From Amycolatopsis sp. 195334CR (lineage in GTDB: Bacteria > Actinomycetota > Actinomycetes > Mycobacteriales > Pseudonocardiaceae): a DNA stretch of 64,000 nt. The position numbers and the translations under genes are program-made. The DNA lies in the NCBI RefSeq assembly GCF_017309385.1, contig NZ_JAFJMJ010000002.1, positions 868,001 to 932,000 of the forward strand. Reading direction: 5' to 3'. The notes beneath the pieces were generated by a model that saw only the letters and a program-made list of their open reading frames with translations, was not told the DNA's origin and made no database searches. How positions within the stretch are numbered: the first letter of the stretch is position 1; each line of letters begins with the position of its first letter. Below, piece after piece: positions 6,016-23,656 of this stretch.

Positions 6016-7842
6016 ATGACTGTCGGCGTGCGGGTCCTCGGCGAGCTCGAGGTCGTGCGTGATGGCCTGCTGGTCACGCCATCACAGCCGAAGGTGCGCC
6101 AGCTGCTCGCCCTACTGGCGGTCAACTGGAACAAGGTGGTCCGCACCGAACAGCTGCGCACCGAACTGTGGGGCGGCAACCCGCCCCCGAAGGCCAGCAC
6201 CACGCTCCAGGTCTACGTCTCCAACATCCGCCGCATGCTGGCCGGTGAGCCGCGCTCGGCGAGCGGGACCGTGGTCCACCGGCCCCGCGTCGGCTACGCG
6301 CTGAACCTCCCCGAGCACACGCTCGACATCGCGCGCTTCGCCGAGCTGGCCCGCTCGGGCCGCGCCGAGCTGGACGCCGGTCGTCTCGAAGAAGCCTCCG
6401 CCGCCTTCCGCGGCGCGCTGGAGGAGTGGCGCGGCGGCCCCCTCTGCGACCTCGATCCCGGCGAGGTGCTCGCCCCGCACGTGGCCCGGCTCCGCCAGGA
6501 ACGCGCGAGCGTGCTGGAGCAGCGCATCGAGGTCGACCTGGTGCTCGGCCGCCACCTCGACCTGATCGGCGAGCTGCGCGTGCTGGTCCAGGAGTACCCG
6601 ACGCACGAGGGCCTGCACGCCAAGCTGATGCTCGCGCTGCACCGCTCGGGCATGCGCTCGGAGGCGCTGAGCGTGTTCCAGCGCCTGCGCACCGACCTGA
6701 TCGACCAGCTCGGCCTGGAGCCGAGCGCCTCCACCCGCCGCCTGCACCAGGACCTGCTCGACGGCGAGGTCAACCAGGACCAGCCACCCGGCAGCACCAG
6801 CATCCGCCGCGCCAAGTCGTGGTGGCACCCGCCCGCGCAGCTGCTGCCCGACCCGGTCGAGGTGATCGGCCGCGACACCGAGGCCGAGCGGATCGCCGGC
6901 GAACTGCGGGAAACCGCGAAGCTGGCCGTGGTGACCGTGGCCGGCGGACCGGGCGTGGGCACCTCCACCCTCTGCGCGCACGTGGCGAACCAGGTCCGCG
7001 AGTCCTTTCCGGACGGTCAGGTGTACGCCGACCTGCTGGCCCACGAGTCGCCCGGCGACGTGCTGGCCGGGTTCCTGCGGGCCATCCGCGGCCCGGACTG
7101 CTGGCTGCCCGCCAGCGAACAGGAGCGCGCGGACCTGTTCCGCAGCTGGACCGCCCGCCGCCGGATGCTGGTGGTGCTGGACAACGTCACCGCCGCCGAC
7201 CAGTTCTCCCTGCTCCTGCCCGGCGGCGAGGGCAGCGCGGTGCTCGCCGGGTGCCGCCGCCGGATCGCCGATCCGAACGGCCTCGCGGTGACGCTGCGCC
7301 CGCTGTCCGCCGCGGACTCGCGCCGCCTGCTCGAAACGATGATCGGCGCCCAGGTGGAACGGGAACCCGACGCCGCCACCGAACTGGCCGAGCTGTGCGG
7401 CGGCCTGCCCGCGGCGCTGATCGGCGCGGCGACCCGGCTCGCGCTGCGGCCGCACTGGTCGATCTCGCGCGTGGTGCACCGCCTGCGCGCGCCGGGCGAC
7501 CGCCTCGGCGAGCTGTCCGCGGGCAGGCTCGACCTCCTGGCCAGCGTGGAACGCACCTCGTCGCTGCTCGACGACGACCAGGCCGACGCGTTCCAGCGGT
7601 TCGCCGGCCTCTTCGTCACCGCGGTGTCGGTGCCGGAGTTCGCCCGCGCCTGCCTGATCGGGGAGCGGGCCGCGGAGTCCCGGCTGGAGCAGCTGGTCGA
7701 ACTGCAGCTGATCGAGGTCGAGGAGAACCGCCCGCAGCCGGGCACCGGGTACTTCACCTACCGCATGCACCCGCTGGTCCGGCTGGCCGCGCTGGCCATC
7801 GGCGAACGCCGTCAGGAATCCTTGCGCGCCACCATCCGGTAG
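6016..7842 (+). CDS. SARP/AfsR-family transcriptional activator with degenerate NB-ARC domain
   Basis: 608-residue regulator. Order of domains: OmpR-type winged helix (about 1-95, with RVLGELEVVRDG and the QVYVSNIRRML recognition region), bacterial transcriptional activation domain (about 100-245, ending DLIDQLGLEPS), then an NB-ARC-like ATPase (about 275-510). In the P-loop AGGPGVGTST the Walker lysine is replaced by threonine, while Walker B (MLVVLDNV) is intact, so ATP binding may be altered. The TPR region of full AfsR proteins is missing. The gene converges on the PKS operon and overlaps the last gene of it by 31 bp, so it is the natural candidate activator for that operon, where a matching repeat array lies at 21589-21632 (inference). 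Confidence 0.9.
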   Translation: MTVGVRVLGELEVVRDGLLVTPSQPKVRQLLALLAVNWNKVVRTEQLRTELWGGNPPPKASTTLQVYVSNIRRMLAGEPRSASGTVVHRPRVGYALNLPEHTLDIARFAELARSGRAELDAGRLEEASAAFRGALEEWRGGPLCDLDPGEVLAPHVARLRQERASVLEQRIEVDLVLGRHLDLIGELRVLVQEYPTHEGLHAKLMLALHRSGMRSEALSVFQRLRTDLIDQLGLEPSASTRRLHQDLLDGEVNQDQPPGSTSIRRAKSWWHPPAQLLPDPVEVIGRDTEAERIAGELRETAKLAVVTVAGGPGVGTSTLCAHVANQVRESFPDGQVYADLLAHESPGDVLAGFLRAIRGPDCWLPASEQERADLFRSWTARRRMLVVLDNVTAADQFSLLLPGGEGSAVLAGCRRRIADPNGLAVTLRPLSAADSRRLLETMIGAQVEREPDAATELAELCGGLPAALIGAATRLALRPHWSISRVVHRLRAPGDRLGELSAGRLDLLASVERTSSLLDDDQADAFQRFAGLFVTAVSVPEFARACLIGERAAESRLEQLVELQLIEVEENRPQPGTGYFTYRMHPLVRLAALAIGERRQESLRATIR

Positions 7843-8855
7843 GCGTTGGACAGCCGCGCGCGCCCGGCGAACGGCCGCACCAGCCGGTCCGCGACGGCGG
7901 CCAGCACCACCCCGAGCGCTCCGGCCAGGAGCACCCCGCCGCGCGCGATCCGGCGGAATCGCCCGGGGGAGCGCGGGTGCCACGGCGCGTCCTCGCGCGG
8001 GGCGAGGTCGTCGAGCGAGAGCCAGGCCGCGGCCACCAGGTCGATCGGGTCGTGCGCCTCGGCCCGCTGTTCGAGCACCACGGTGAAGCCGAGCGATTCC
8101 AGGCGCTGCCGCAGGTTCGCCAACGGCACGAAGTGCAGGTGCTGCGGCTGCAACCACGGCAGCCAGCGGCGCCCGAGCAGCCGGGCGTACCGGCTCTCCG
8201 GATCGGGCACCTCGATCACCAGGTGCCCGCCGTCGCGCAGCACGCGGTGCGCGGCATCGAGTTCGGCCTGCGGCGCGGTGCTGTGCTCCAGGTAGTGGTA
8301 CATGCTGACCACGTCGTAGCGGTCCGCCAGCTCGTCGGCCAGTTCGACGAACAACCCGCGGTACCCGGTGGACACGCGGCCGTGCTCCTCCGCCAGCTTC
8401 ACCCCGTCGGACAGGTCCAGCCCGTCGAACCGGGTTTCCGGGAACACCTCGCGCGCGGATTCGCAGAAGTGGCCGTGCCCGGTGCCCACGTCGAGCCAGT
8501 TCGACGGCGTGACCAAGCCGGAGACCGCCGAAGCGCGCCCCAAGTAGGTCTTGCCACGGCCTTCGAACTGCCCGGCGAGTTGCTTCTCGCCGAGGCCGTC
8601 GTAGAAGTCGCGGTAGTAGAACTCCAGCCCGGCCGGGCTCAGCCGCGGGTTCTGGAAGATGTGCGCGCAGTCCTGGCACTGGTCGAGGGTGAACCGGCCC
8701 GGCTTGTGCTGCAGGAAGTCCTTGGTGCGCAGCCGGACCGACAACCGCTCGGACGAGCACCACGGGCAGGCCGGGGACCGCGGCTCGAAGAACCGGTCGA
8801 GCCCGCCGGCGAGGTCGGCCTGGTAACCCGGCCGGAGCCGGTCGATCTCGGTCAT
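7812..8855 (-). CDS. class I methyltransferase with N-terminal zinc motif, last gene of PKS operon
   Basis: 347-residue protein. A Cys pair CPWC at about residues 30-33 and a second pair CQDC at about 60-63 suggest a small zinc ribbon. The SAM-binding domain follows (LDVGTGHGHF at about 124-133, YDVVSMYHYLEH, and VLRDGGHLVIEVPD), as in the Methyltransf_23 group of tailoring enzymes. A hydrophobic stretch at about residues 305-325 may be a membrane anchor. The ATG overlaps the glycosyltransferase stop (ATGA). Likely O- or C-methylates the polyketide or its sugar. Its last 31 bp lie antisense to the 3' end of the SARP gene. Confidence 0.85.
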   Translation of the reverse strand: MTEIDRLRPGYQADLAGGLDRFFEPRSPACPWCSSERLSVRLRTKDFLQHKPGRFTLDQCQDCAHIFQNPRLSPAGLEFYYRDFYDGLGEKQLAGQFEGRGKTYLGRASAVSGLVTPSNWLDVGTGHGHFCESAREVFPETRFDGLDLSDGVKLAEEHGRVSTGYRGLFVELADELADRYDVVSMYHYLEHSTAPQAELDAAHRVLRDGGHLVIEVPDPESRYARLLGRRWLPWLQPQHLHFVPLANLRQRLESLGFTVVLEQRAEAHDPIDLVAAAWLSLDDLAPREDAPWHPRSPGRFRRIARGGVLLAGALGVVLAAVADRLVRPFAGRARLSNAYRMVARKDS

Positions 8856-9982
8856 GCGCGCACTCCCGCCGTGGTCAGGGCTTCCAGGTGCCCGGCTGCC
8901 GCGGCGGCGCCACCGGCCGCGCGGAAGGACCGGCCGATGCGGGCCGCGTTGGCCCGCATGCCGCTGCCGGGGTCGAGCACGGTGCTGATCGCGACCCGCA
9001 GGTGGTCCGCGGTCGCCTTGGTGAACCGGACCCGCACACCCGCGCCCGCCTCGGCCACCTGCTCGGCGATCACCGGCTGGTCGTCGCGGATCGGCGCGAC
9101 CACCAGCGGCAGTTCGTGCCAGAGCGCTTCGCAGACGGTGTTGTGCCCGCCGTGGCAGATCACCGCGTCCATTTTCGGCAGCAGTTCGAGCTGCGGCACG
9201 TGCGGTCGCGACAGCACGGTGTCCGACGACGGGAGCACCCCGGCCGGGTCGGCGACCACGGCCCGCACGCCGGTGGCGGCGCATTCGGTGAGGAACCGGG
9301 CGCCCGCGTCGACGTTGGCCGTGCCGAGGGTGACCAGCACGGTGGGCCGGTGGTCGAGCCACTCCCACGGGAAGTCCTTTTCGGACTCGCGGTCGGTGAT
9401 GGACGGCCCGACGAAGTGCACCCCGCGCATCTCCCCGGCCAGCTCGGCGGTGGTGAAGGCGAGCACGCCGTGCGGGGAGAAGCGGGGATCGGCGGTGCTC
9501 GCCGGATCGCCGATCGACGCCCGCAGCCCGGCCAGCCGGTCGAGCACCCAGTCCCGGACCTTCGGCATCGAGGCGAGCGGATCGGTCAGTTCGGCGGAGG
9601 TGGTGGCCGAGGTCAGCCACGGCAGGCCGAGGCGGTCGGCGATCAGGCCACCGGCCACCGCCTGCTGGTCGACCAGCAGCGCGTCCGGCCGGAAGTCGGC
9701 GATCGCCGCTTCCACACCCGGCGCCATGGCGGCGGCCAACGGCAAGAAGCCCTCTTCCCACAGGAACTTCAGCGCCGCCGCGCCCCGCAGCTCGGGCGGG
9801 CGCGGGGTGGCGGGCGGCAGCGCGCAGTCGTAGGCGCGGACCGCGCCGGCCAGGCGGGTGATCAGTTCACCGTGCCCCGCCCAGGCCACCTCGTGCCCGC
9901 GCCGGGTCAGCTCGGCGGCCACCCCGACGACCGGGTTGACGTGCCCGACCAGCGGGGGCACCACCAGCAGGAACCGGCTCAT
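8852..9982 (-). CDS. family-1 (GT-B, UGT/MGT-like) glycosyltransferase
   Basis: 376-residue enzyme starting MSRFLLVVPPLVGHVNPVVG, the usual N-terminus of actinomycete natural-product glycosyltransferases, with the GHVNP loop near residue 13. The C-terminal nucleotide-sugar site is clear: ICHGGHNTVCEALWHELPLV at about residues 264-283, followed by DDQPVIAEQVAEAGAG. It resembles macrolide and zeaxanthin glucosyltransferases. No sugar biosynthesis genes are nearby, so it probably uses a housekeeping donor such as UDP-glucose. Start codon overlaps the hydrolase stop (ATGA). Likely attaches a sugar to the PKS product, giving a glycolipid-like metabolite (inference). Confidence 0.9.
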   Translation of the reverse strand: MSRFLLVVPPLVGHVNPVVGVAAELTRRGHEVAWAGHGELITRLAGAVRAYDCALPPATPRPPELRGAAALKFLWEEGFLPLAAAMAPGVEAAIADFRPDALLVDQQAVAGGLIADRLGLPWLTSATTSAELTDPLASMPKVRDWVLDRLAGLRASIGDPASTADPRFSPHGVLAFTTAELAGEMRGVHFVGPSITDRESEKDFPWEWLDHRPTVLVTLGTANVDAGARFLTECAATGVRAVVADPAGVLPSSDTVLSRPHVPQLELLPKMDAVICHGGHNTVCEALWHELPLVVAPIRDDQPVIAEQVAEAGAGVRVRFTKATADHLRVAISTVLDPGSGMRANAARIGRSFRAAGGAAAAAGHLEALTTAGVRA

Positions 9983-10767
9983 CCGGTCTCCACCAGGGTG
10001 TGCTCGCGCACCCAGCCGAGCACCAGTTCCCTGGTCAGCTCGGTCCGTTCGACCAGCACCGAATGCCGCTGGCCCGGCACCACCACGGTCCGGCAGACCG
10101 GCAGCAGCTCCGCCAGCACCGGCGCCTGCTCGGCGAGGTCCGACTCGGCACCGTAGATCGCCAGCACCGGCGCGGTCACCGCGGCGATCTCGCCGGGGGT
10201 CAGCACCGCGCTGGCCGGGATGTCGTCGGCGAGCGTGCTGGAGCGCAGGACTTTTCCGGCCGAGCGCGCCAGCCTGCTGGTGTGCGCGCCGTGGTTCGCG
10301 GTGATCCACTCGAAGGCGGCTTCGTCGGCCAGCTGTTCGCGGGCGCGGCCGAGGTTCGCCGCCATCTTCGTGGCCCAGGCGGCGGTCGCGGGTTCCGACT
10401 CGATCATCGTCACCGACGCCACCCGGCCCGGGAGGCGGGCGGCGAAGCCGAAGGCGATGGTGCCGCCGAAGGAGTTGCCGACCAGGTGCACCGGCTCGGT
10501 GACGGCCAGCTCGCCGAGCAGCGCGGTGAGGTCGTCGACGAAGGTCTCCAGCCGGTACCCGGCGGGCGGGCGCTCGCTGCGGCCGTGCCCGCGCAGGTCG
10601 TACATCACCACGTCGTGCCCGGCCGCGGCGAACGCCGGGCCGAGGGTGAAGTAGTAGCTGGCCAGGCTGTCCGTGCCGAGGCCGTGCAGGAACACCACCG
10701 GCGAGCCTTTTCCGGCGCTGCCGAGGCGCTGGACGTGCACGCCGATGCCGTTCGCGGTCAGCTTCAC
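9979..10767 (-). CDS. alpha/beta hydrolase, possible chain-releasing thioesterase
   Basis: 262-residue single-domain alpha/beta hydrolase. The oxyanion region FLHGLGTD is near residue 27, the nucleophile elbow is GNSFGG (Ser at about residue 97), the acid is probably in YGAESD, and the catalytic His is in GQRHSV near residue 236. Neither megasynthase carries a thioesterase domain, so this enzyme is the best candidate to release the product by hydrolysis or transfer. It starts in the stop of the ACP gene (ATGA). An editing or unrelated esterase role cannot be excluded. Confidence 0.85.
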   Translation of the reverse strand: MKLTANGIGVHVQRLGSAGKGSPVVFLHGLGTDSLASYYFTLGPAFAAAGHDVVMYDLRGHGRSERPPAGYRLETFVDDLTALLGELAVTEPVHLVGNSFGGTIAFGFAARLPGRVASVTMIESEPATAAWATKMAANLGRAREQLADEAAFEWITANHGAHTSRLARSAGKVLRSSTLADDIPASAVLTPGEIAAVTAPVLAIYGAESDLAEQAPVLAELLPVCRTVVVPGQRHSVLVERTELTRELVLGWVREHTLVETG

Positions 10768-11051
10768 CGGGCCGCCCCCACCAGCGAACCCTCCACGTGC
10801 CGCACCAGCGCGCCGACGGTCAGCCCGATGATCTCGTCGAGCTCCAGCCCGGCGATGAACTCGGCGAAGTTGACCTGCTCGCCGTAGCGCTCCTGCAGCT
10901 GGCCCGCGAGCGCCACCAGGTCGATGCTCTCCATCTCGAGATCGTCGGTGAACAGGGTGTCCATGCCGATCTCCACGTCCCCGGTGCCGTAGTCGGCCAG
11001 CACCACCTCGATCATCTCGGTGATCTCGGCCAGGATCCGCTCGGTGCTCAT
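10764..11051 (-). CDS. free-standing acyl carrier protein
   Basis: 95-residue acidic protein. The phosphopantetheine site is the serine of DDLEMESIDLVALA (about residue 40); the usual DSL is replaced by ESI, which occurs in some PKS carrier proteins. Its spacing and helical pattern fit a normal type II ACP. It lies directly after the KS-AT-DH protein, with ATGA overlaps on both sides. PKS2 has no internal ACP, so this protein may be the carrier that PKS2 works with, or a loading or transfer ACP. Confidence 0.9.
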   Translation of the reverse strand: MSTERILAEITEMIEVVLADYGTGDVEIGMDTLFTDDLEMESIDLVALAGQLQERYGEQVNFAEFIAGLELDEIIGLTVGALVRHVEGSLVGAAR

Positions 11052-14000
11052 ACCCCAGCTCCTTCCTCCGCCGCCTGCGCGGCGATCCGGTCCAGCGCGG
11101 TGCCGCCCGGGTCGACCATGGCCACCGCGGTGGTGCCGTGGCAGGCCGCGCCGACGGTCAGGGGTGGCAGCACCCGGCCGTGCGCCCCGGTCACCGTGGT
11201 TTCGCCGGTGACCTGGATTTCGGCGGGGAACAGCTCGCCCTCGCCGCGGTTCCACAGCCACCACCGCACCGCGTCCTTGATCGCGATCCGCCGCAGCAGC
11301 CACTGCCGTTTTTCCCGTGGTGGCACGCGTTCGTAGTCCGCGCGCTCGGCCTTGCCGAGGTGGTTGCGCATGATCAGCTCACGTGAAGCCAGATCCGGCC
11401 ACTGCTCGCGCAGCACCACCCAGCCGCCTTCCTCGGGCACGGAAAGCGTGTTGCGGCTGGGGAAGCGGTCGGCCGAGCGGGTGTGCGGCGTGCTGTCGAA
11501 GCGCCGGTCGCGCCAGCCGGTGATCTCCGCCCACGGCCTGCCACCGGCGGACAGCTGCACGTCGGCGTCCAATGTGGACTCGGTCAGCGCGGTGATCCGG
11601 ATGAAGCAGTCGAGGCGCTCCCCGGTGGCCGGGTGCGGGCCGAAGAACCGGATCCGCCGCATCTGCACCGGGAACACCACGTCGCGCTCCGGGTGGTGCG
11701 AGATGATCCAGTAACCGAGCAGCTGGCCCACGTTGTCCAGCAGCGCGCCCGGTGCCGGTGGGGTGGTCAGCACCCCGCGCACGTGCCGCGGTCCGATCGC
11801 GGTCAGTTCCGAAACACCTTGGTAGCGCGGGCCGTGGAACATCCAGTGCTCGTCGTACAGCTGGGCCGCGGTCATCTCCGGTGCGCGTTCCGCGCCCGGC
11901 CGCCACAACGCGAGCGGCGCGGGGTAGCCGGTGGCGAGTTCGATCTCGGCGCGGGCGTACCCGGTCAGCTCCACCGCCACCCGGCCGGGCGCGGTCACCT
12001 TGACGTCCACGGGGATCTCGGTGGCCGGGATGGCGGCGAGCCACCGGGAGAGGCGGACGTCGTGCACGCCGATCGCCCTGGTGCCGGGCACCGCGCGCTC
12101 GGCGAACTCGATCAGGTGCTGGATGACCGTGGTGGCGGGCACGATCGGCCAGCGGTCCTCCAGGTCGGGCCAGTCCGGGCGCTGGCGGAAGAAGCAGTGG
12201 TCGGCGAGGTAGGGCATCGCGTCGACGGAGACCCGGAGGCTGGGTGGTTTGCTCGCGGCCAGCAGTTCGGCCGCGGTGTTCGCGGTCTCGCGCATCAACG
12301 CGGACAACTCGGCGGCGATGGGGGAAGCGTGGGCCAGCGAGTCCAGTTCGGACGGACCGCCCAGGTTCGGCTGCTGGCCCAGTTTTAGGCGGACGGAGCC
12401 ACCGAGGCGCACCATCGGCGTATCGAGGCTGATCGGCACGGTCTTGCGCCGGGGTGCTTCCGGCCGCCGTGTGTCGAGCTCGCCCGGCACGGTCCCGTGC
12501 CGAGATGCCGTCGGCTGCGGTGTCTCCAGCAGGTCCGGGTCGCCGCCTTCTGCCCACAGTGCCAGTGCCACCCGCCGCAGTTGGGCGAGGCCGGGGCGCT
12601 TGGCCGAGTTCGCCGCGACCACCAGGTGCGGTGAACCGGCCAGCGTGTCGCCGATCAGCGAGCCCACCTGCCCGGCACCCAGCTGGACGAACGCCCGGAA
12701 CCCGGCCGCGTGCATGGCCTCGATCATCGGCCGGAACCGCACCGGTTCGAGCAGGTGCCGCACGAACAGCTCGCGCACCTCACCCGGCGCCGACGGGAAC
12801 TCCGCGGCGGTGGTCGCCGACCATACCCCGACCGCGGGCCGGTGCAGCTCGAACCGGTCGGCGGCGGCGCGGATCGGCTCCAGGTACGGCTCCAGCATCG
12901 GCGTGTGGAAACCCGACTGGAACGGCAGCACCTGGCTGATCACCCCGGCCGCGCGCATGCTCCGCACCAGCTCGTCCACCGGCCCGGCCGGCCCGCAGAC
13001 CATCGCCTGCTTCGGCGCGTTGTCGTGGGACAGCACGACCTCCGGCGGCAGCACGCGGGCGAGCTCGGCCGCCGACGTGCCGATCACCGCGAACGCCAGC
13101 CCCGGCACCCGCAACCCGGCCGGGTCGAAGGAACCCAGGAACTCGTCCACAGCGGACTGGTCGTAGATGCCACCGCAGGCCATCGCGGTCCATTCGCCGA
13201 CGCTGTGCCCGGCGACCGCGTCCGGGACCACGTTCATCCGGCGCAACGCGGCGTCGAGCAGCCTGCCCAGCTGGAAGACCCCGGCGCCGTGCCCGCCGAG
13301 CACCGAGGCGTCCGGCGCCGACCACGGCAGGCCGAAGTGCGCGGCCACGTCCTCGGCGCGGGGCTCGAACTCGGCCTCGAGCCCCGGGAAGACAAACGCG
13401 ATCTTGCCGCCACCGGACAGCAGCGGCTCCGGGCTGAACCAGATGTCGTTGCGCCCCCGCCACGGCTTGCCCCTGGCGACGGCCTTCCGCGCGGTGGCAA
13501 GGCGTTTCGGCGTCGGGTCGGCGACGGCCAGGCGCACCGGACCGGTGCCGCCGGTCACCGGTTCACCTTCCAGCGCGCGGGCCAGTTCGTCCACAGAGGA
13601 CGCGGCGAGGCGCAGCGCGCGTTCCGGCTCACGGACTTCGACCACCGGCTGGGCCCGGCCCGCCTGTTCGAGCACGACGTGGGCGTTGATCCCGCCGAAG
13701 CCGAACGCGTTCACGCCCGCGAGCCGGTGGCCCGTCCACTCCTCGGCACGGCCGGTGGTCCGGAAACGCGTGTCCGCCAGACCGGGGTGCGGGTCGTCGC
13801 AGTGCAGGGTCGGCGGCAGCACGCCGTGGTAGACCGCGAGCGCCGCCTTGACCAGCCCGGCCACCCCGGCGGCGGGCATGGTGTGCCCGATCATCGACTT
13901 GACCGAGCCGAGCACCGCGCGCGGCCCGTCGGCCGGGCCGAACACCTCCGCGAGCGTGGCCAGTTCGGCGCCGTCCCCGGCCGGGGTGGCGGTGCCGTGG

Positions 14001-14995
14001 GCCTCCAGCAGGCCGATCGACGCCGGGTCGAGGTCGGCGGCCCGCCAGGCCGCCCGCACGGCGGTGACCTGACCGCCGGAGTCGGGGTTGACCAGGCTGG
14101 CGGTGCGCCCGTCGCTGGCCACCCCGCTGCCGCGGATCACCGCGTAGACCCGGTCGCCGTCGCGCTCGGCGTCGGCGAGCCGTTTGAGCACCACCACGCC
14201 GGTGCCCTCACCGATCAGGATGCCGTCGGCCTCGCGGTGGAACGGCCGGATGCGCTCACTCGGCGAAAGCGCCTTGAGCTGGGAGAACACGCTCCACAGG
14301 GTGATGTCGTGGCAGTGGTGCACACCGCCGGCGAGCATCAGGTCGCACCGGCCGCTCGCCAGTTCGCGCACCGCGTGGTCCACCGCGATCAGCGAGGAGG
14401 CGCACGCGGCGTCCACTGTGTACGCCGGGCCGCGCAGGTCGAGCCGGTTGGCCACCCTGGATGCGGCGAGGTTCGGCACCAGGCCGATCGCGGACTCGGG
14501 GGAGTGCGGGCCGAGCGCGTCGGTGAACGCCGAGCGCACCCGCTCCAACTGGTCGGCGCCCAGTTCGGGGAGCAGTTCGCCGAGCGTGTGCGTGAGCTGC
14601 CTGGCGGTGCGCACGCGCTGGTCGAGCCGGACCAGCCCGGGGGTGAGGTAGCCACCGCGGCCGAGGATCACCCCGGCGCGCTGCCGGTCCGGCAGGCGGC
14701 CGCCCGCGTCGGCGAGCGCCTCGGCCGCCACCCGCAGCGCGATCAGCTGGTCGGGTTCGGTGCCGGGCACCGAATTCGGCATGATCCCGAACTTGGTCAC
14801 GTCGATCTCGGCACCGTCGACGAAGCCGCCGCGACGGCAGTAGACCTCGGATCCGCCGGCTTCCCAGCGTCCGCCGGGCACCTCGCTGATCGCGTCGACA
14901 CCGCCGGTGATGTTGCGCCAGTAGGTGGCCAGGTCGGGCGCGCCGGGCAGCAGGACCGACATGCCGACGATGGCCACGGGCGTCACGGTGCTCAC
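11048..14995 (-). CDS. PUFA-synthase-like megasynthase 2: KS-AT-DH-PPTase-like
   Basis: 1315 residues. KS at about 1-450 with a complete catalytic triad (Cys in DAACASS at about 196, His in EAHGTATPAGD and in GHTMPAAG), so it is not a chain-length-factor type. AT at about 525-810 with nucleophile motif GHSVGE and GFHTP in the specificity region. Hotdog dehydratase at about 920-1145 (His in YLADHCFF, Asp in LLDNVGQLLGYW). The C-terminus (about 1190-1290) resembles an AcpS-type phosphopantetheinyl transferase, with RIAIKDAV replacing the usual KEA motif. No ACP, KR or TE. The GTG start at 14995 lies in the stop of PKS1 (GTGA). The domain set recalls PfaA/PfaC and the DH-PPTase end of enediyne PKSs, but is split differently. 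Confidence 0.9.
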   Translation of the reverse strand: MSTVTPVAIVGMSVLLPGAPDLATYWRNITGGVDAISEVPGGRWEAGGSEVYCRRGGFVDGAEIDVTKFGIMPNSVPGTEPDQLIALRVAAEALADAGGRLPDRQRAGVILGRGGYLTPGLVRLDQRVRTARQLTHTLGELLPELGADQLERVRSAFTDALGPHSPESAIGLVPNLAASRVANRLDLRGPAYTVDAACASSLIAVDHAVRELASGRCDLMLAGGVHHCHDITLWSVFSQLKALSPSERIRPFHREADGILIGEGTGVVVLKRLADAERDGDRVYAVIRGSGVASDGRTASLVNPDSGGQVTAVRAAWRAADLDPASIGLLEAHGTATPAGDGAELATLAEVFGPADGPRAVLGSVKSMIGHTMPAAGVAGLVKAALAVYHGVLPPTLHCDDPHPGLADTRFRTTGRAEEWTGHRLAGVNAFGFGGINAHVVLEQAGRAQPVVEVREPERALRLAASSVDELARALEGEPVTGGTGPVRLAVADPTPKRLATARKAVARGKPWRGRNDIWFSPEPLLSGGGKIAFVFPGLEAEFEPRAEDVAAHFGLPWSAPDASVLGGHGAGVFQLGRLLDAALRRMNVVPDAVAGHSVGEWTAMACGGIYDQSAVDEFLGSFDPAGLRVPGLAFAVIGTSAAELARVLPPEVVLSHDNAPKQAMVCGPAGPVDELVRSMRAAGVISQVLPFQSGFHTPMLEPYLEPIRAAADRFELHRPAVGVWSATTAAEFPSAPGEVRELFVRHLLEPVRFRPMIEAMHAAGFRAFVQLGAGQVGSLIGDTLAGSPHLVVAANSAKRPGLAQLRRVALALWAEGGDPDLLETPQPTASRHGTVPGELDTRRPEAPRRKTVPISLDTPMVRLGGSVRLKLGQQPNLGGPSELDSLAHASPIAAELSALMRETANTAAELLAASKPPSLRVSVDAMPYLADHCFFRQRPDWPDLEDRWPIVPATTVIQHLIEFAERAVPGTRAIGVHDVRLSRWLAAIPATEIPVDVKVTAPGRVAVELTGYARAEIELATGYPAPLALWRPGAERAPEMTAAQLYDEHWMFHGPRYQGVSELTAIGPRHVRGVLTTPPAPGALLDNVGQLLGYWIISHHPERDVVFPVQMRRIRFFGPHPATGERLDCFIRITALTESTLDADVQLSAGGRPWAEITGWRDRRFDSTPHTRSADRFPSRNTLSVPEEGGWVVLREQWPDLASRELIMRNHLGKAERADYERVPPREKRQWLLRRIAIKDAVRWWLWNRGEGELFPAEIQVTGETTVTGAHGRVLPPLTVGAACHGTTAVAMVDPGGTALDRIAAQAAEEGAGV

Positions 14996-17900
14996 CACTC
15001 GGACGCGCTGTAGACCACGGACCGCGCCGAATCCTCGCCCCAGGCCAGTTCGCGCAGCAGGGCGAGCGCGCCCTCCTCCTGGTCGATCAGGCCGATCCCG
15101 CGCCGCTGGTAGGAGCGCATCAGCTCGGGGGAGACCATGCCGCCGTGCGTGCCGCCGGGTGCCCACGGTCCCCAGTGGACGGTCAGCGCGCGCCGCTCGG
15201 GCGTGGACCATCGGCGGCCGATGGCTTCGAGCGCGTCGTTCGCCGCCGCGTAGTCGCACTGCCCGCGATTGCCGAGCACCGCGGCGATGCTGCCGAACAG
15301 GACCGCGAACCGAGGTGCCACCGGCAGTTCCGCACCGGCCGCCAGCAACGCCCTCGCACCGTCCACTTTGGTGTCGAACACCCGGCGGAAGGACTCCGGG
15401 TCCTTCTCCGCCAGCAGCTTGTCCTCGATCACGCCCGCCGCGTAGACCAGTCCGTCGAGCCTGCCGTGCTCGGTGTGGATCTCCTTGACCAGCCGGTGCA
15501 CGGCTTCGGCGTCGCGGACGTCGAGCGCGTGGTAGCGGGCCTGGCTGCCGAACTCGGCCAGTTTCGCCAGGGTGGCGGCGACTTCGCGCTGGGCGAGCAG
15601 GCGGTTCGCCTCGCGGTCGACCTCGGCCGGGGTGCGGCCGGGGGCGGCCAGCGCGCGGCGGAGTTCGGCGAGGGTGGTCGCGCTGGCGGTCGCCGGGTCC
15701 TCCGGTCCGCTGGGCAGCGAGGTCCGGCCGACGAGCTCGATCCGGCAGCGGCTCGCGGCGGCCAGGGTCTCGGCGAAGTGCGCGGTGATGCCACGGCCGC
15801 CGCCCGCCAGCAACACCACCGAATCCGAGTCCAGGCCGAGCGCGGCGGCTTCGGCGGCGCCGTCCCCGGCGGGTCCGGCGCCGGTCGAGCCGAGCAGGCC
15901 CAGCGGGGTTTCCACCAGTTCCAGCGACTGCCGCCCGGCCGGCGAGCGCAGCACCACCGGCGCGCCCTCACCGGTCAGGAGCTCATCGAGGATGGCGTCG
16001 GACGGGTCCTCGCCGTCGATCTCGACCAGCCGGATCGCGCTCTCCGGGTACTCGCGGGCGAGGGTGCGGAAGAAGCCGCGCAGGCCGTCGGTGCGTTCGG
16101 TCAGCCCGGCGGGCACACCGGCGATCACCGTGCTGGGGTTCCCGGCCAGTGCCTCGCGGAAGGTGCCGAACGCCTCGGGGAACAGCGGATCCGTACCGGT
16201 GAAGGCATCGAGGTGGATCAACAACTCCACAGTGGACTCACCGGGGTGGGCGCCGTGTTCGGTGAGCAGTGCGCTCAGGCGGTCGGCGTGGGCGCCGCCG
16301 CCGAGGAGGCGAAAGGACCGGCCCGCCAGCCCGTCCGGGGTCGCCGGGGTGCCGTTCAGCGCGGTGGGCACGAGTTCGAACCGCTTGGGCGCGACGCCAC
16401 CGGCTTCGAGTTCGGGCTCGGGTGCGGGGGCCGTGGCCGGGGTGGTGAGCTTGGCTTCCAGCAGTTCGGCGATCGAAGCCGCGGTCCTGGCCTTGGACAG
16501 TTCCTCCAACTCCTCGTCGGAACCGGAGGACAGGCCGAGGCGCACCGCCAGCTCACCGGCGATCTCGGCGCGCTTGATCGAGTCGACGCTCAGATCGGCT
16601 TCGAGGTCCAGGTCCGGCTCGATCATGTCGGCGGGGTAACCGGTGCGCTCACCGATGATCTCGACCACGGCCTGCATCACGTCGAGCGCACCCCGGGCCG
16701 TCACCTCCGCCACCTCCGGCACCGGCTCGGGGGTGGCGACGGCGAGCTGGGAGGGCGCGGGGGCCGGGAGCACCGGCGCGGGCAGGGACGGCACGCCCTG
16801 CTGCGTGCCGAGATAACCGAGCAGCACGTCGCGCTGGGCGGCGACCATTTCCCGGCTGCTGCGCAGGAACTCGGCGATGAGCGCGTCGGCTCCGGTCACG
16901 GGTGCCTCCTGGGTGCTGGCTAGCTGGACTCGGTGCGCGGGCCGCAGTGCGCCCGCCGGGATGCTGCCGTCGGCGGTCCGCACCAGCTGCCCGTCGACCG
17001 TCCACCCCGGACGCTTCGCGGGTTGCGCGGTGACCGCGTCCCGGCCGTCGAACAGGTGGCTCGCGGTGACCTCGGCCCCGGCCAGCGCCAGCTTGGCCAG
17101 CGCCTCCAGGAAACCGCGGAGCCCGCCGTCGCAGGTCACCGTCTGGTGTGGACGGTCACCGAGCACGGCCGCGGTCAGCTTGGTGAGCACCGACCCCGGT
17201 CCCGCTTCGACAAAAACCCGGGCACCGGCCGCGTACATCGCTTCGATCTGCTCGGCGAACCGGACCGGGGCGCCGATCTGCGCGGCCAGTTCGGCGCGGA
17301 CCTCGTCCGGGTGCGCCGGGTACTCGGCCGCCGTGCGGTTCGACCAGACCGGCAGCCGCGGCGTGCCGACCTCGTGGTCCGCCAGCACGTCGGCGAACAG
17401 GCCGGTCGCGCCGGCCACCACCGGGCTGTGGAAGGCACACGCGACCGGGATCCGCTTCGCGCTGAACCCCGCTGCCCGCAGCACCTCGATGGCTTTGTCC
17501 ACTTCGGTCGTCGGCCCGGAAATGACCGTCTGCCCGGGGGAGTTCCGGTTCGCCGTCACCACGTCGAGCCCGGCCAGTGCGGACTCGACCGCGTCGGCAC
17601 CGGCGGAGACGGCGGCCATCGTGCCGGGATCGTCCCCGGCCGCGGCCAGGATCGACTCGGCACGCGCGGCGGACAGCTCCAGCAGGGTCGCGGGATCGAG
17701 CACGCCCGCGACGCTGAGCGCGACCAGTTCACCGTAGCTGTGCCCGGCGGTCATCGCGGGCCGGACACCCGCCTGGGCCAGCAGCTCGGCCACCGCGAGC
17801 CCGGCGATGCCGAGCGTCGGCTGCGCCACCCGGGTGTCGGTGATCGCGGCCTTGCGCGCGGCCGCCGCGTCGCGGTCGAAGTCGGCGGGCGGGAACAGGT

Positions 17901-20900
17901 CACCGAGCCAGCGCTCACCGAGGCTGAGGTACCGCCGCAGTTCCGGGAAGTTGACGAACAACTCCGCGAGCATCCCCGGCTTCTGGCTGCCCTGCCCGGG
18001 GAACAGGAACGCGATGTCGCCGGTGACCTGCGGCTCCGGCACGGGCTCGGTCAACCGCGTGACCAGTTCACCGACACTGCTCGCCACCACCGCGATCCGG
18101 ATCGGGCCGGTGCGCGTGTCCGACCGGCGCGCCGCCACCAGCGCGAGGTCGCGCAGCCGCCAGTGACCCGTGCGGGCCTGCTCCAGCAGCTTCTCCGCGT
18201 CGGCGGGATCCCGGAACAGGAACAGTTCAGCGGGCCACGCGTCCTGCGTGTGCCGCGGCGGCGGGCCCTCGTCGTGGGCGGTCAGCACGGCGTGGAAGTT
18301 CGTGCCGCCGAAGCCGAACGCGCTGACCCCGGCGATCCGCTCGCCCGACGCCCACGGGCTCGGCGTGGCGCGGAACTCGAACGGGCTGGTTTCGGCCTGC
18401 CACGCCGCGTTCGGCTTGCTCACGTGCAGCGTCGGCGGCTTGACCCCGGTGTGCAGCGCCAGCGCCGCCTTGATCAGCCCGGCCAGGCCCGCCGCGCACT
18501 TGGTGTGCCCGATCTGGGACTTCACCGAACCGAGCGCGCAACTCGACGGCGCGGCACCGGCTTCGGTGAACACGTTCGTCAGCGTGGTCAGCTCGGTGCG
18601 GTCGCCGACCACCGTGCCGGTGCCGTGGGCTTCGAGCAGCCCGACCGCCGCCGGGGAGACCCCGGCCGAGGTGTACGCGCGCTCCAGCGCGGCGCGCTGT
18701 CCTTCCGGCCGGGGTGCGGTCAACCCGAGCGAACGGCCGTCGCTCGCGCTGCCGACCCCCTTGACCACGGCGTAGACCCGGTCGCCGTCGCGTTCCGCAT
18801 CGGACAGTCGCTTGAGGACCAGGCAGGCCACGCCCTCGCCGAGCGCGATGCCGTCGGCCGAGTCGTCGAAGGTGCGCGAGCGGCCGGTCGGCGACAGCGC
18901 GTGCACCGAGGAGAAGAGCACGTAGTCGTTGATCCCGTTGTGCAGGTCGGCGCCACCGCACAGGACCACGTCGCTGGTCCCGGCCACCAGTTCCTTGCAG
19001 GCCACGTCGAGCGCGGCGAGCGAGGAGGCGCAGGCGGCGTCGACGGTGTAGTTCGCGCCGCCGAGGTCGAGCCGGTTCGCGATCCGCCCGGCGATCACGT
19101 TCGCCAGCATGCCGGGGAACGAGTCCTCGGTCAGCTCCGGCAGCTGCCCGGCCAGCGCGGACGGCACCTGGTCCACATAGGACGGGAGCACCGCGCCGAG
19201 GGTGGCCGCGTTCGACAGGTCGCTGCCCGCCTCGGCGCCGAAGACCACCGAGGTGCGGGTGCGGTCGAACGCACCGAGCGCGGCGTCGTCCAGCGCGCGC
19301 CGCGCGGCCTCCAGCGCGAGCAGCTGCACCGGCTCGATGCTGCCGAGCGACGCGGGCGGAATGCCGTACCGCAGCGGGTCGAACGGGATCTCCGGCAGGA
19401 AGCCGCCCCATTTGGACTTGCTGGCGCCGGATTCGTAGTGCACCGCGGGATCCCACCGGTGTGGTGGCACCTCGGTCACCGAATCGGTGCCCGCCAGCAC
19501 GTTCGCCCAGAACTCGGCGAGGTCGGCGGCACCGGGGAACATGCCCGCCATGCCGACGATCGCCACGTCCAGCGGTTTCGCGACCGGCTCGGGTGCTTCC
19601 TCACCGCGCAGCCGTCGCGTGCTCTCGCCCAGGTACGCGGCGGCCCCCGTGCTGACGGACTCGTGCAGCTTCGCGAGCGTGGTCACCGAAGACCGGAGCA
19701 CGGCGACCTCACCGGCCATGAACATGCCCTCGGCGAGCTGGCGGTCTTCCTCGACCTGCCGCAGTTCGTCGCCGACGCGCTCGACGCCCTTGCTGGCCAG
19801 CCGGAGCCTGCCGACGTTGAGCTGCTCCAACTCGGCCCACGCCTGCTTGTCCGGCACGCCTTCGGCCCGCAACCGGTCGCGGATGCCGGTGAAGTCCTCG
19901 GTGAACGGGCTGCGCACGCAGCGGGTGGCGTGGCCGGGCGCGGTCTCCAGCAACGCGGTCCCGGTCGCGGCGACCACCTCCCGCTGGAACGCGGGCAGGA
20001 TCGCGCCGTGGTCCACGGCCTCCTCGGTGAACAGGTACGCGGTGCCCATCAGCACCCCGAACTTCGCGCCGCGCCCGGTCAGCGGCGCGGCCATCGCGGC
20101 CACCATCGCCGCCGAGCGCTCGTCGTGGATGCCGCCGGCGAAGTAGACCTCGACCCCGTCCAGGTCGCCGGAATCGAGCAGGGTGTCGAGCTGCGCCTCC
20201 CACAGCGGGAAGCTGGTGCGCGGGCCCACGTGCCCGCCGCATTCGGCGCCCTCGAAGACGAATCGCCGCGCGCCCGAGCGCAGGAACTGGGCCAGCAGCC
20301 CGGGGGAGGGCACGTGCAGGTAGGTGCGGATGCCCGCGGCTTCGAGCGCGCTCGCCTGCGCGGGACGGCCACCGGCCACGATGGCGTGCGTCGGCCGCAG
20401 CTCGTGCACGGCTTCGAGCTGCGCGGACCGGGTCTCCTCCGGCGCGAACCCGAGCACGCCGACGCCCCACGGCCGGTCGCCGATCGTGGCCTTCGTGCGC
20501 GCCAGCAGTTCGCGGGTCTGGTCGCGGCCGGACAACGCGAGCGCGACGAACGGCAATGCGCCCGCCTCGGCGACCGCGACGGCGAATCCGGCGCGATCAC
20601 TCACCCGGGTCATCGGGCCCTGGGCAATCGGCAATTCCGCGCCGAACCCGGAATTCACACTTTTCACGGCTTCGCGAATACCGCGAATCGCGGCCCGGAC
20701 GGTGCCCCAGCGGTCGGCGAATTTCCGCGCGAGAAATCCGTCCTGCCCGATTTCCAGCACGTGCCCACCGCGCTGGAGCACGCGGCGGCCGTCGACCACG
20801 GTGGTTTCCGAGCCGTCCATTCCGGTCAGCGCGGCGGCGATTCCGGCGGGCAACCCGGTTTCCTCGAGCAGCGCCAGCTGGGAATCGAGCACCACGCCCG

Positions 20901-21417
20901 CAGCACCGCCGACCATCGCCGCCACGGCGGTCCGCGGGCCGATGCCACCGCACGCCCACACCGGTGCCCCGGTGGCTTCGACCAGGCGTTGCAGCAACAC
21001 GAACGTGCTCAGCTCGCCCACCGGCCCGGCGCACTCGTGACCGCGCGCGATCAGCCCGTGCGCTCCCGCGGCGAGGGCCCGCTCGGCTTCCTCGAGGCTG
21101 GTGACTTCGGCCAATACCACGAAATCACTGGGGATTTCCCCAATCTCCCAAGGGGAATCCGCGCCGACCAGCACCGTCCGCGCCCGCTCGGGCAGGTCGC
21201 CGGGCCGCAGTTCGCACCCCGGAACCGGGCGCACGCCGAACTCGCGCGAGGTCCAGCCCGCCGTGCGGTCGAGTTCTTCGCGGCCACGCGCGCCGAGTTC
21301 CAGCACGCCGAGCGCGCCGGCCTGGCAGGCCGCGGCCACGAGCCGAGCGCCGGAAAAGCCGCGGGGGCCCAGTGCGAGGACGAGGCCGGCCGCCGATCGG
21401 GTATTCACCGAATTCAC
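14992..21417 (-). CDS. PUFA-synthase-like megasynthase 1: tandem PfaD-like ER-KS-AT-ACP-KR
   Basis: 2141 residues. Two consecutive nitronate-monooxygenase/PfaD-type TIM-barrel domains fill residues 1-555: the second has the canonical GAECGGHVG motif (about 391), the first has GHECAGPVG (about 125), with Pro in place of the catalytic His. KS at about 615-1045 (Cys in DAACASS near 795, EAHGTGTVVGD, GHTKCAAG). AT at about 1130-1440 (GHSYGE; AFHS, which usually marks malonyl-CoA). ACP with the PUFA-type site LSVDSIKRAEI (Ser about 1611). KR from about 1865 (GGGRGITA, then Ser/Tyr in SIAAVLGNRGQCDYAAAN). GTG start with GAGGAA 6 nt upstream. First gene of the operon. The fused flavin enoyl reductase suggests a reduced or partly unsaturated chain. 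Confidence 0.93.
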   Translation of the reverse strand: MNSVNTRSAAGLVLALGPRGFSGARLVAAACQAGALGVLELGARGREELDRTAGWTSREFGVRPVPGCELRPGDLPERARTVLVGADSPWEIGEIPSDFVVLAEVTSLEEAERALAAGAHGLIARGHECAGPVGELSTFVLLQRLVEATGAPVWACGGIGPRTAVAAMVGGAAGVVLDSQLALLEETGLPAGIAAALTGMDGSETTVVDGRRVLQRGGHVLEIGQDGFLARKFADRWGTVRAAIRGIREAVKSVNSGFGAELPIAQGPMTRVSDRAGFAVAVAEAGALPFVALALSGRDQTRELLARTKATIGDRPWGVGVLGFAPEETRSAQLEAVHELRPTHAIVAGGRPAQASALEAAGIRTYLHVPSPGLLAQFLRSGARRFVFEGAECGGHVGPRTSFPLWEAQLDTLLDSGDLDGVEVYFAGGIHDERSAAMVAAMAAPLTGRGAKFGVLMGTAYLFTEEAVDHGAILPAFQREVVAATGTALLETAPGHATRCVRSPFTEDFTGIRDRLRAEGVPDKQAWAELEQLNVGRLRLASKGVERVGDELRQVEEDRQLAEGMFMAGEVAVLRSSVTTLAKLHESVSTGAAAYLGESTRRLRGEEAPEPVAKPLDVAIVGMAGMFPGAADLAEFWANVLAGTDSVTEVPPHRWDPAVHYESGASKSKWGGFLPEIPFDPLRYGIPPASLGSIEPVQLLALEAARRALDDAALGAFDRTRTSVVFGAEAGSDLSNAATLGAVLPSYVDQVPSALAGQLPELTEDSFPGMLANVIAGRIANRLDLGGANYTVDAACASSLAALDVACKELVAGTSDVVLCGGADLHNGINDYVLFSSVHALSPTGRSRTFDDSADGIALGEGVACLVLKRLSDAERDGDRVYAVVKGVGSASDGRSLGLTAPRPEGQRAALERAYTSAGVSPAAVGLLEAHGTGTVVGDRTELTTLTNVFTEAGAAPSSCALGSVKSQIGHTKCAAGLAGLIKAALALHTGVKPPTLHVSKPNAAWQAETSPFEFRATPSPWASGERIAGVSAFGFGGTNFHAVLTAHDEGPPPRHTQDAWPAELFLFRDPADAEKLLEQARTGHWRLRDLALVAARRSDTRTGPIRIAVVASSVGELVTRLTEPVPEPQVTGDIAFLFPGQGSQKPGMLAELFVNFPELRRYLSLGERWLGDLFPPADFDRDAAAARKAAITDTRVAQPTLGIAGLAVAELLAQAGVRPAMTAGHSYGELVALSVAGVLDPATLLELSAARAESILAAAGDDPGTMAAVSAGADAVESALAGLDVVTANRNSPGQTVISGPTTEVDKAIEVLRAAGFSAKRIPVACAFHSPVVAGATGLFADVLADHEVGTPRLPVWSNRTAAEYPAHPDEVRAELAAQIGAPVRFAEQIEAMYAAGARVFVEAGPGSVLTKLTAAVLGDRPHQTVTCDGGLRGFLEALAKLALAGAEVTASHLFDGRDAVTAQPAKRPGWTVDGQLVRTADGSIPAGALRPAHRVQLASTQEAPVTGADALIAEFLRSSREMVAAQRDVLLGYLGTQQGVPSLPAPVLPAPAPSQLAVATPEPVPEVAEVTARGALDVMQAVVEIIGERTGYPADMIEPDLDLEADLSVDSIKRAEIAGELAVRLGLSSGSDEELEELSKARTAASIAELLEAKLTTPATAPAPEPELEAGGVAPKRFELVPTALNGTPATPDGLAGRSFRLLGGGAHADRLSALLTEHGAHPGESTVELLIHLDAFTGTDPLFPEAFGTFREALAGNPSTVIAGVPAGLTERTDGLRGFFRTLAREYPESAIRLVEIDGEDPSDAILDELLTGEGAPVVLRSPAGRQSLELVETPLGLLGSTGAGPAGDGAAEAAALGLDSDSVVLLAGGGRGITAHFAETLAAASRCRIELVGRTSLPSGPEDPATASATTLAELRRALAAPGRTPAEVDREANRLLAQREVAATLAKLAEFGSQARYHALDVRDAEAVHRLVKEIHTEHGRLDGLVYAAGVIEDKLLAEKDPESFRRVFDTKVDGARALLAAGAELPVAPRFAVLFGSIAAVLGNRGQCDYAAANDALEAIGRRWSTPERRALTVHWGPWAPGGTHGGMVSPELMRSYQRRGIGLIDQEEGALALLRELAWGEDSARSVVYSASEW

Positions 21418-21712: not shown

Positions 21713-22345
21713 TCAGCCGAACCGGGCGTCCAGTCCGGTGGTGATGGCCAGCACGCCGTCGGTGTAGACCTGCTCGCGGGCCTGGTCGTCGGGGTCGACG
21801 AACCAGCCGGGCAGCGGGCTGCGCGCGGCGTTGGTCAGCTCCACGCTGATCAGCCCGTGCATGGTGGTCCAGAGCAGGTACGAGTACCGCCTGCCGTCCT
21901 CAGCGGACAGTCCCTCGGGGCTGGCGCGGTCCACCACCTGGGTGAAACTGGACCGCAGCACGCTCAGCCGCAGCGCCGGGTCCGGGTCGAAGTCGGCCAC
22001 CGGGCGCTCGAACATGAACGCGTACCGGGCCGGGTTCTCCAGCGCGAAGCGGCGGTAGACCAGCGCGAGGGCGAGCACGTCCGCCCGCCGGTCACCCGTT
22101 CGTGGCGGCAGCGTGGCGTACGCCGCGTCGAGCTGCTCGAAGGCCCGTTCGTACAGCGCGTCGAGCACCCCGGCGCGCCCGCCGAACCGGCTGTACACCC
22201 CGATCGTGGAGGAGCCGGCGGCGTCGGCGAGGTTGCGCACGGTCAGCCCGGCGACGCCCTGCTCGGCCAGCACGCGGATGGCGGCGCGCAGGAACCGCTC
22301 CCTGGTCTCGGCGGCCGATCGCGCCGCGCCCTCCCGTGCCGCCAT
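21713..22345 (-). CDS. TetR-family transcriptional regulator
   Basis: 210-residue repressor-type protein. The N-terminal helix-turn-helix is clear at about residues 14-60 (RERFLRAAIRVLAEQG, LTVRNLADAAGSST, VYSRFGGRAGVLDAL). The C-terminal ligand-binding part is of the WHG/TetR_C_25 type. It lies on the same strand immediately upstream of the PKS operon, 296 bp from PKS1, and has an 11-bp-arm inverted repeat 10 bp before its own start. It may repress itself and sense the product or an intermediate (inference). Confidence 0.88.
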   Translation of the reverse strand: MAAREGAARSAAETRERFLRAAIRVLAEQGVAGLTVRNLADAAGSSTIGVYSRFGGRAGVLDALYERAFEQLDAAYATLPPRTGDRRADVLALALVYRRFALENPARYAFMFERPVADFDPDPALRLSVLRSSFTQVVDRASPEGLSAEDGRRYSYLLWTTMHGLISVELTNAARSPLPGWFVDPDDQAREQVYTDGVLAITTGLDARFG

Positions 22346-22650: not shown

Positions 22651-22741
22651 CGTTCCGGCGCACTCGCGCGGCGTGTCACCCAAATCGGTTCGGTAACGAC
22701 CACTCACCGTGGCACCGGGGGTGAGCTGGTTGAATGCGGCC

Positions 22742-23656
22742 ATGCTGCGTGTGGGGCTGACCGGCGGGATCGGTGCGGGCAAGTCGACGGTGGCGACCCG
22801 GCTCGCCGAGCACGGGGCGCTGGTGATCGACGCCGACCGGCTCGCCCGCGAGGTGGTCGAACCGGGGACCGAGGGCCTGGCCGAGGTGGTGGCCGCGTTC
22901 GGCGAGGACGTGCTGGCCGAGGACGGTTCGCTGAACCGCCCGGCGCTGGCCGCCAAGGCGTTCGCCGACGACGAGTCGCGGCGGCGGCTCAACGCGATCG
23001 TCCACCCCAGGGTGGGCGCGCGCACCGCCGAGCTGATGGGCCAGGCCGCCGCCGACGGCATCGTGGTGCACGACGTGCCGCTGCTGGTGGAGAACGGCCT
23101 CGCCCCGCACTACCACCTGGTGCTGGTGGTCGACGCCGAGCCGGAGGTCCGGGTGCGGCGGCTGGTCGAGTCCCGCGGCATGGCCGAGGCCGACGCGCGG
23201 GCCAGGATCGCCGCCCAGGCCGGCCCCGAGCAGCGCCGCCTGGTCGCCGACGTGTGGCTGGACAACGGCGGCACCCCCGACCTCGTGCTGTCCGAAGTGG
23301 ACCGGCTGTGGGCCGACCGGATCGTGCCGTTCGAGGCGAACGTCCGGCTGCGCCGGGTGCGCCCGCGGCCCTCGCTCAAACCGGTGCCCCACGACGACAC
23401 CTGGCCGGTGCAGGCCGAGCGGGCGATCGCGCGGATCCGCGCGGCGGTCGGGGCCAAGGGCGAGAACATCGAGCACGTCGGGCCGACCGCCGAACCGGGC
23501 ACCGAGGCACCCGACGTGATCGACCTCCGGCTGACCGCGAACGCCGACGTGACCGAGGAACTGGCCGGGGCGGGCTTCCCGCACGACCCCGAGGACCCGC
23601 CGGGCCTGCACCGCGGCGCCGACCCCGGCCGCCCGGTCACCCTCGCCGTGGTGTGA
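22742..23656 (+). CDS. coaE: dephospho-CoA kinase with truncated GrpB-like tail
   Basis: 304 residues. Catalyses the last step of coenzyme A synthesis, phosphorylation of dephospho-CoA. The P-loop GGIGAGKST is at about residues 8-16, followed by DADRLAREV and, later, [11 protein letters not shown] and RRLVESRGM, all typical of CoaE (residues 1-200). The C-terminal 100 residues resemble the start of the GrpB/UPF0157 domain fused to actinobacterial CoaE ([27 protein letters not shown]), but stop short of the complete domain, so the tail is truncated compared with the roughly 400-residue mycobacterial form. Overlaps the convergent response-regulator gene by 20 bp. Confidence 0.96.

Follow-up and report, generated by a model that had tools for sequence, protein, structure and literature searches.

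A widespread actinomycete operon akin to secondary-lipid synthases, with a conserved glycosyltransferase gene and a predicted glycolipid product

The window analysed here is a stretch of 64,000 nucleotides from Amycolatopsis sp. 195334CR (contig NZ_JAFJMJ010000002.1, positions 868,001 to 932,000), and the system in question is a set of six genes at positions 7812..21417, all on the minus strand, in which each adjoining pair overlaps by 4 bp. This operon, uncharacterised but widespread, represents a variant form of secondary-lipid synthase most similar to the ArsA/ArsD system, and carries a conserved glycosyltransferase (GT) gene. Judged from its gene content, its product would very likely be a long-chain lipid that is built iteratively and glycosylated. 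The explanation that probably serves best as a whole is a glycolipid synthase cassette whose saturated β-hydroxy very-long-chain acid is glycosylated and released by a hydrolase, with a macrolactone as the most likely final form. The genes encode, in order, two polyketide synthase (PKS) proteins designated PKSA and PKSB, a free-standing acyl carrier protein (ACP), an α/β-hydrolase, the GT and a methyltransferase (MT); this set of six coupled genes had been proposed in a preliminary description made from the letters of the sequence, and the single strand, the 4-bp overlaps and the Pfam domains agree with it.

Domain content and catalytic residues

The domain make-up, the active sites kept or lost, the operon structure and the conservation of the core genes are direct observations. 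PKSA (14992..21417) comprises 2141 amino acids, or 2115 if translation starts at 21339, and a GAGG motif, judged by eye, lies 8-9 nt 5' of its GTG codon at 21417. Its domains are an enoyl reductase (ER)-like barrel, an ER barrel, a ketosynthase (KS), an acyltransferase (AT), an ACP and a ketoreductase (KR). Residues were counted in alignments of 97 PKSA and 89 PKSB rows, from which a length filter removed shorter sequences; these alignments include two loci twice (L092=L013 and L099=L068), and the Beijerinckia rows discussed below are uncounted. The catalytic Cys796 and both His residues (His931, His971) of the first KS, KS1 (18280..19569; PF00109/PF02801), are present in 97/97 PKSA rows, as are the Ser, Arg and His of AT1 (17173..18009; PF00698; GHSYGE, Arg1252, His1330) and the Ser of the internal ACP (16498..16674; PF00550; site LSVDSIKRAE). 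The KR (15160..15819; PF08659) keeps its catalytic Ser, Tyr and Asn in 93 of the 97 rows each. By motif, one ACP site was counted in 80 of 101 PKSA rows, the window protein among them, two or three in 20 and none in one; these counts, like those of the phosphopantetheinyl transferase (PPTase) motifs given below, were made with simple regular expressions.

The two N-terminal TIM barrels of PKSA differ in their catalytic state. The second (19600..20649) is an active-type flavin mononucleotide ER whose His396 is kept in all 97 rows, while the first (20668..21417), of the FabK/PfaD type, is degenerate, reading ARGHECAGPVG where the second reads EGAECGGHVG, so that the GGH sequence with the catalytic His is gone. 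The identity of the first barrel rests on the FabK model (E=1.7e-13, residues 24-191), the ER-model fold matches covering residues 200-610. Two PfaD-like domains had been expected at this end of the protein; both barrels are indeed there, and the first has lost its catalytic motif. It may act as a built-in dimer partner of the second. A subfamily of five loci (L101, L102 and L104-L106) aligns only from PKSA residue 258 and seems to be without the first barrel.

PKSB (11048..14995; 1315 amino acids) carries a second KS and AT, a dehydratase (DH) and a truncated PPTase. KS2 (13658..14980) is intact and not of the chain-length-factor type, with Cys198 and His371 present in 89/89 PKSB rows and His333 in 88/89. 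AT2 (12680..13249; partial PF00698; GHSVGEW) keeps its Ser, and the double-hotdog DH (11492..12259) its His933 and Asp1087, in every one of these rows. The end of PKSB (11048..11428) corresponds to the N-terminal half of an Sfp-type PPTase. Residues 929-1309 align at 28% identity with a 629-residue DH-PPTase protein of Beijerinckia indica (PS-DH and ACPS domains), PKSB ending at about the position of its GVDIE motif, and a fold search with the PKSB end has DH proteins among the matches listed. A Pfam search of the window PKSB gave no PF01648 match at E<=0.1, the C-terminal half of the fold is missing, and neither the GVDxE nor the KEA motif is present; on these grounds a working PPTase in this protein was rejected. 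Among 96 PKSB rows including that of the window, with two loci counted twice, both motifs were found in 67, neither in 27 (several of them cut by contig ends) and KEA only in 2. A profile search found one PF01648 match elsewhere in the genome, and its protein is a candidate trans-acting PPTase.

Since the catalytic residues of KS1, KS2, the DH, the second ER barrel and the KR are kept, PKSA and PKSB appear to be an iterative, fully reducing synthase in which both KS domains are competent, in line with the earlier assignment to iterative machinery resembling that for polyunsaturated fatty acids (PUFA) and other secondary lipids. The earlier count of one internal and one free ACP is likewise correct: a second PF00550 protein of 95 amino acids (10764..11051) keeps its Ser42 in 92/92 rows. 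The thioesterase-like hydrolase (9979..10767; 262 amino acids; PF00561) has a Ser nucleophile in 84/91 rows and a Cys in 7/91, with His235 present in 91/91; a nucleophile of either kind is what an acyl-enzyme would require. The Cys forms come from six distinct loci (L046, L019, L024, L050, L068, which is L099, and L037). The GT (8852..9982; 376 amino acids; PF06722, with TIGR01426 below its cut-off) is of the GT1/MGT type, and its GH and RDDQ motifs are conserved across 88 rows at a level of 90% or more. The class I MT (7812..8855; PF13489) has an N-terminal CPWC...CxxC region and a hydrophobic C-terminal stretch.

Relationship to known lipid synthases

PKSA is colinear with WP_012382816 from the Beijerinckia indica plasmid pBIND02, the two having 675 of 1612 alignment columns identical (42%), both ER barrels included. 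WP_012382816 shows the same Pfam order, ER-ER-KS-AT-ACP-KR in one chain, and, together with the 310 related loci described below, this contradicts the idea of a new domain split. B. indica ATCC 9039 is listed under Type P, with phenolic-lipid alkyl chains as product (Shulse & Allen Table 1, PMC3098273), and the pBIND02 genes are identified by us with that Type P cluster. In Azotobacter vinelandii, ArsA is described as a synthase of C23-C25 fatty acids and ArsD as a PPTase (PMC4824345). The likeness of the operon to ArsA/ArsD, which was measured on the Beijerinckia proteins and not on A. vinelandii sequences, lies in the pair of ER barrels that precedes KS-AT-ACP-KR in the same chain, in the DH-PPTase protein that matches the end of PKSB, and in the position of KS1 as a sister clade of Type P. 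Unlike ArsA/ArsD, the window has a second KS-AT fused before the DH and a truncated PPTase, as well as the free ACP, hydrolase, GT1 and MT, and type III PKS genes are found neither in the window operon nor among the gene families common to many loci.

The acyl chain of A. vinelandii ArsA goes to the type III PKSs of its own operon (PMC4824345), and the WP_012382816 gene adjoins two type III PKS-like genes along with the DH-PPTase gene. This raises the possibility that the chain made here is a starter unit handed to unrelated tailoring genes elsewhere, with the GT and MT acting on another aglycone. Such a role appears most improbable: no acceptor family occurs among the conserved neighbours, and the interval between the bordering genes rpsA and coaE holds, by gene calling, only the operon and two regulators (SARP, TetR).

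The Types of secondary-lipid synthases are lettered by KS phylogeny, in which Type M stands near Type P (PMC3098273). The main KS tree had 43 rows, with ten KS of the window genome added and the long-branch rows L125, L112 and the second KS of L115 dropped. Unannotated plasmid matches from pSCAT, R. opacus and Azospirillum were used for KS trees only, and as a modular reference the author chose, from 55 PF00109 hits in the window genome, eight type I KS and labelled them modular. In this tree KS1 is sister to two Type P KS (95/93), not inside Type P, and KS2 forms its own clade (100/100), while support is only 83/80 at the branch by which Type P and KS1 together connect with the Pfa-like group. 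The eight modular-labelled KS group together (100/99) to the exclusion of KS1 and KS2, and both also stand apart from the pair of enediyne PKSs (PKSE; 100/100), so that the KS phylogeny proposed in the preliminary description places them outside the modular type I and enediyne clades. In an earlier tree of 36 rows, from which a length filter removed the modular KS, the long-branch KS of L112 was placed between KS1 and Type P (96/85). Locus L112, on the Rhodobacteraceae mobilizable plasmid pSC52_2, holds a relative of PKSA residues 259-1231 beside dioxygenase, MT and PPTase-bearing genes.

With PfaA-E the operon shares a TIM-barrel ER, the order KS-AT-ACP-KR and an AT-bearing second protein, and among NCBIfam models the PfaA model TIGR02813 scores best with PKSA and PKSB alike, which is the ground for supposing a PUFA synthase proper whose polyunsaturated acid is then glycosylated. 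The scores of PKSA and PKSB, 842.7 and 411.2 bits, nevertheless lie under the cut-off of 1010.1 bits. In contrast to PfaA-E, the window lacks tandem ACPs, PKSA having a single site; its ER is fused and duplicated instead of being a separate PfaD, and its PPTase is decayed. KS2 keeps the Cys, whereas the second KS of Pfa systems is described as a chain-length factor, and one DH was found in the window against two in PfaC (PMC3098273). Moreover, the tree puts KS1 beside Type P, and the Type P relative of known product makes the alkyl chains of phenolic lipids; a PUFA product is accordingly judged very improbable.

The preliminary description had also likened the DH-PPTase end to that of enediyne PKSs. 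The enediyne PKSE is one chain of KS-AT-ACP-KR-DH-PPTase, whereas the window splits its domains over two proteins, and comparison with a PKSE from an enediyne-annotated cluster gave 31% identity in KS-AT and no meaningful local alignment in the DH-PPTase region. An enediyne relationship was rejected, as the KS domains fall outside the PKSE clade, the identity is confined to KS-AT, and an ArsD-like DH-PPTase fits better. Elsewhere in the same genome, a KS (L127, G000:C1:3902664-3903524) groups with the PKS of an enediyne-annotated cluster (100/100), and the genome may thus also hold an enediyne-type cluster. A heterocyst glycolipid synthase of the HglE type would be expected to have an HglE-like KS and reductive release to an alcohol; no reductase gene is among the operon genes, and the KS tree had no HglE sequence in it.

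Among actinobacteria, Type M is given without a product in the extracts of PMC3098273 consulted, and PUFA-synthase-like genes of Kutzneria and Nocardia likewise in those of PMC4210621 and PMC4035055. The operon resembles these uncharacterised secondary-lipid synthases in its actinobacterial host and PUFA-synthase-like core genes. Its family is probably Type M of Shulse and Allen, and Kutzneria kal28 is perhaps among the relatives. As had been supposed, no characterised cluster with exactly these genes appeared among the literature matches listed.

Conservation of the core and the predicted product

A PKSA search of genome contigs confirmed 310 related loci. Counts for named loci refer to the best 80 of these 310, and divergent members are therefore under-sampled; 20 further loci, from 18 genomes of which two were used twice, were hand-picked from the PKSA matches within the genus. 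Two genus loci duplicate named ones (L092=L013, L099=L068), so that 90 counted loci correspond to 88 distinct ones. The core PKSA-PKSB-ACP-hydrolase-GT stands in one order in 88/88 distinct actinomycete loci with enough downstream DNA, including all 20 picked genus loci. Among the named loci, 68 of 80 have the ordered five-gene core (66 strictly consecutive by gene calls), and in 10 of the remaining 12 the contig is too short to hold the whole core. In the other two, L066 and L086, loss of the GT was considered and rejected, tblastn having located a GT overlooked by gene calling directly after the hydrolase (55-56% identity). The MT directly follows the GT in 41/80 named and 1/20 genus loci and is an optional member, and the next most frequent neighbour family occurs in only 15/80 named loci; ABC or MFS transporter genes adjoin some relatives. 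Since the GT matches the synthase in constancy, glycosylation would belong to the core function, and the glycosylated, possibly methylated lipid predicted earlier is retained as the probable product.

Within the genus, PKSA has a match at E=0 in 34/40 genomes, the window genome counted, and at E<=1e-100 in 35/40, one of which, G012, has a KS-AT-only match and is left out of the 34. In genomes G031 and G007 the five-gene core is present twice, as diverged copies (L090/L091 and L092/L093). In the wider phylum, PKSA residues 1-610 match at E<=1e-60 in 8/296 genomes, again with the window genome counted. For the KS1 region, 7986 of 7990 candidates scored were at E<=1e-40, and the 120 matches listed are mostly Streptomyces proteins with PF03060, KS, AT and KR. 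Two Streptomyces plasmids have a PKSA relative covering 99% of the PKSA length, and one of them, a linear plasmid of Streptomyces sp. NBC_01243 (L110), carries all six genes in identical order. The cassette is widespread in soil actinomycetes, and its layout is common rather than new.

From these genes we infer an order of steps, a chain length, a sugar and a macrolactone form. PKSA and PKSB would act as one iterative, fully reducing synthase, in which AT1 supplies the malonyl units, chain elongation on the internal ACP falls to KS1 and KS2, and each cycle is reduced by the KR, the DH and the second ER barrel. A saturated, very-long-chain acid (about C20-C28) would result, carrying a β-hydroxyl wherever dehydration is skipped, at least in the last cycle. 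The free ACP would pass on the 3-hydroxyacyl chain, the GT would add a hexose, probably glucose, to the hydroxyl, and the optional MT would methylate, probably on the sugar; the identity of the sugar and the site of methylation are guesses from motif and chemistry. The hydrolase-fold protein would then release the product as an acyl-enzyme thioesterase, most likely as a macrolactone of glycosyl-hydroxyacyl units joined through the sugar.

The macrolactone proposal draws on known actinomycete glycolipids. Fattiviracins are ring-closed, glucose-bearing trihydroxy acids of C22-C28, FV-8 consisting of four glucoses and two such acids (PMC4365757, PMC9693975), and cycloviracins are likewise ring-closed and built of trihydroxy fatty acids that carry glucose and exceed 20 carbons, with O-methyl groups on the outer sugars (PMC4365757). 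Glucolipsins contain 2-methyl-3-hydroxy, iso-branched acids (PMC4365757, PMC9693975), and macroviracins are named as kin of these glycolipids (PMC8171317). The operon offers a very-long-chain hydroxy acid, glucosylation, optional sugar O-methylation and thioesterase-like ring closure; the five core genes and the optional MT suit fattiviracin and cycloviracin chemistry. The figure legend for FV-8 gives n=5, m=13 and o=11, and if these letters count the CH2 groups between hydroxyls, as we interpret the legend, all hydroxyls fall on odd, polyketide β carbons. In the macrolactone proposal the synthase would set the chain length and the odd-numbered hydroxyls, a single GT would glycosylate them, and a Ser or Cys thioesterase would close the ring. 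Assignment of the product to the macrolactone class of fattiviracin, cycloviracin and glucolipsin is tentative, and equally so is the suggestion that the five-gene core could be the orphan machinery for fattiviracins, cycloviracins and glucolipsins, perhaps also macroviracins and arthrobacilins, with the MT giving the O-methyl-sugar forms. Glucolipsin departs from the prediction in its 2-methyl branch, its iso-branched end and its shorter chain (about C18).

Literature searched by compound name, mostly as titles and the beginnings of abstracts, yielded no gene cluster for fattiviracin, cycloviracin or glucolipsin. A mass assigned to glucolipsin A is reported from a co-culture of Actinokineospora and Rhodococcus and is unlisted for either strain alone (PMC7918646), and the operon is present in an Actinokineospora of another species than the co-culture strain (L077), a weak tie. 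Several points weigh against the macrolactone cassette. No locus is tied to a metabolite, and a glucolipsin lead in Amycolatopsis keratiniphila was dropped, PMC10221244 having the word in its reference list only. To place several hydroxyls, the synthase would have to skip the DH and ER at fixed cycles, of which the sequence offers no evidence, nor does it prove a role for KS2 or AT2. The hydrolase could also serve simply for editing, or set free a glycolipid acid in linear form.

The last of these points leads to a simpler proposal, in which the same machinery makes a linear glycolipid, a glycosyl 3-hydroxy very-long-chain acid of the envelope or a surfactant, with the hydrolase serving only for release. 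It calls on the same genes, the sequence demands no ring, and the E=0 matches in most genomes of the genus might suit a generally useful envelope lipid. The patchy occurrence outside the genus, the changing neighbours and the plasmid copies are nevertheless more like those of a specialised metabolite, and the linear form is regarded as unlikely. Should it alone be true, a very common actinomycete lipid operon would gain a testable function. If instead the link to the macrocyclic glycolipids is true, antiviral and glucokinase-activating glycolipids would become minable in many genomes, a compact iterative synthase with a possible built-in pseudo-dimer ER would become accessible to study, and a very large number of actinomycetes would hold the genes for orphan antivirals.

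Insertion between rpsA and coaE

The insert is bordered on the left by rpsA, encoding ribosomal protein S1 (3945..5447, plus strand; PF00575, four stretches on 3711-5447), and on the right by coaE, encoding dephospho-CoA kinase (22721..23656, plus strand; PF01121). The distance between the two genes is 17276 bp in the window genome (G000) and 17041 bp in genus genome G004, but ranges from 545 to 3657 bp in 18 further members of the genus, and the cassette was therefore probably inserted here in one lineage. Such an insertion would define the borders of the cassette and suggest movement as a unit. Both regulators inside the insert are also kept in G004: a TetR-type gene directly upstream of PKSA (21713..22345, minus strand; PF00440/PF13305) and a convergent SARP/BTAD gene (6016..7842, plus strand; PF03704), which overlaps the MT gene tail to tail by 31 bp (7812-7842).

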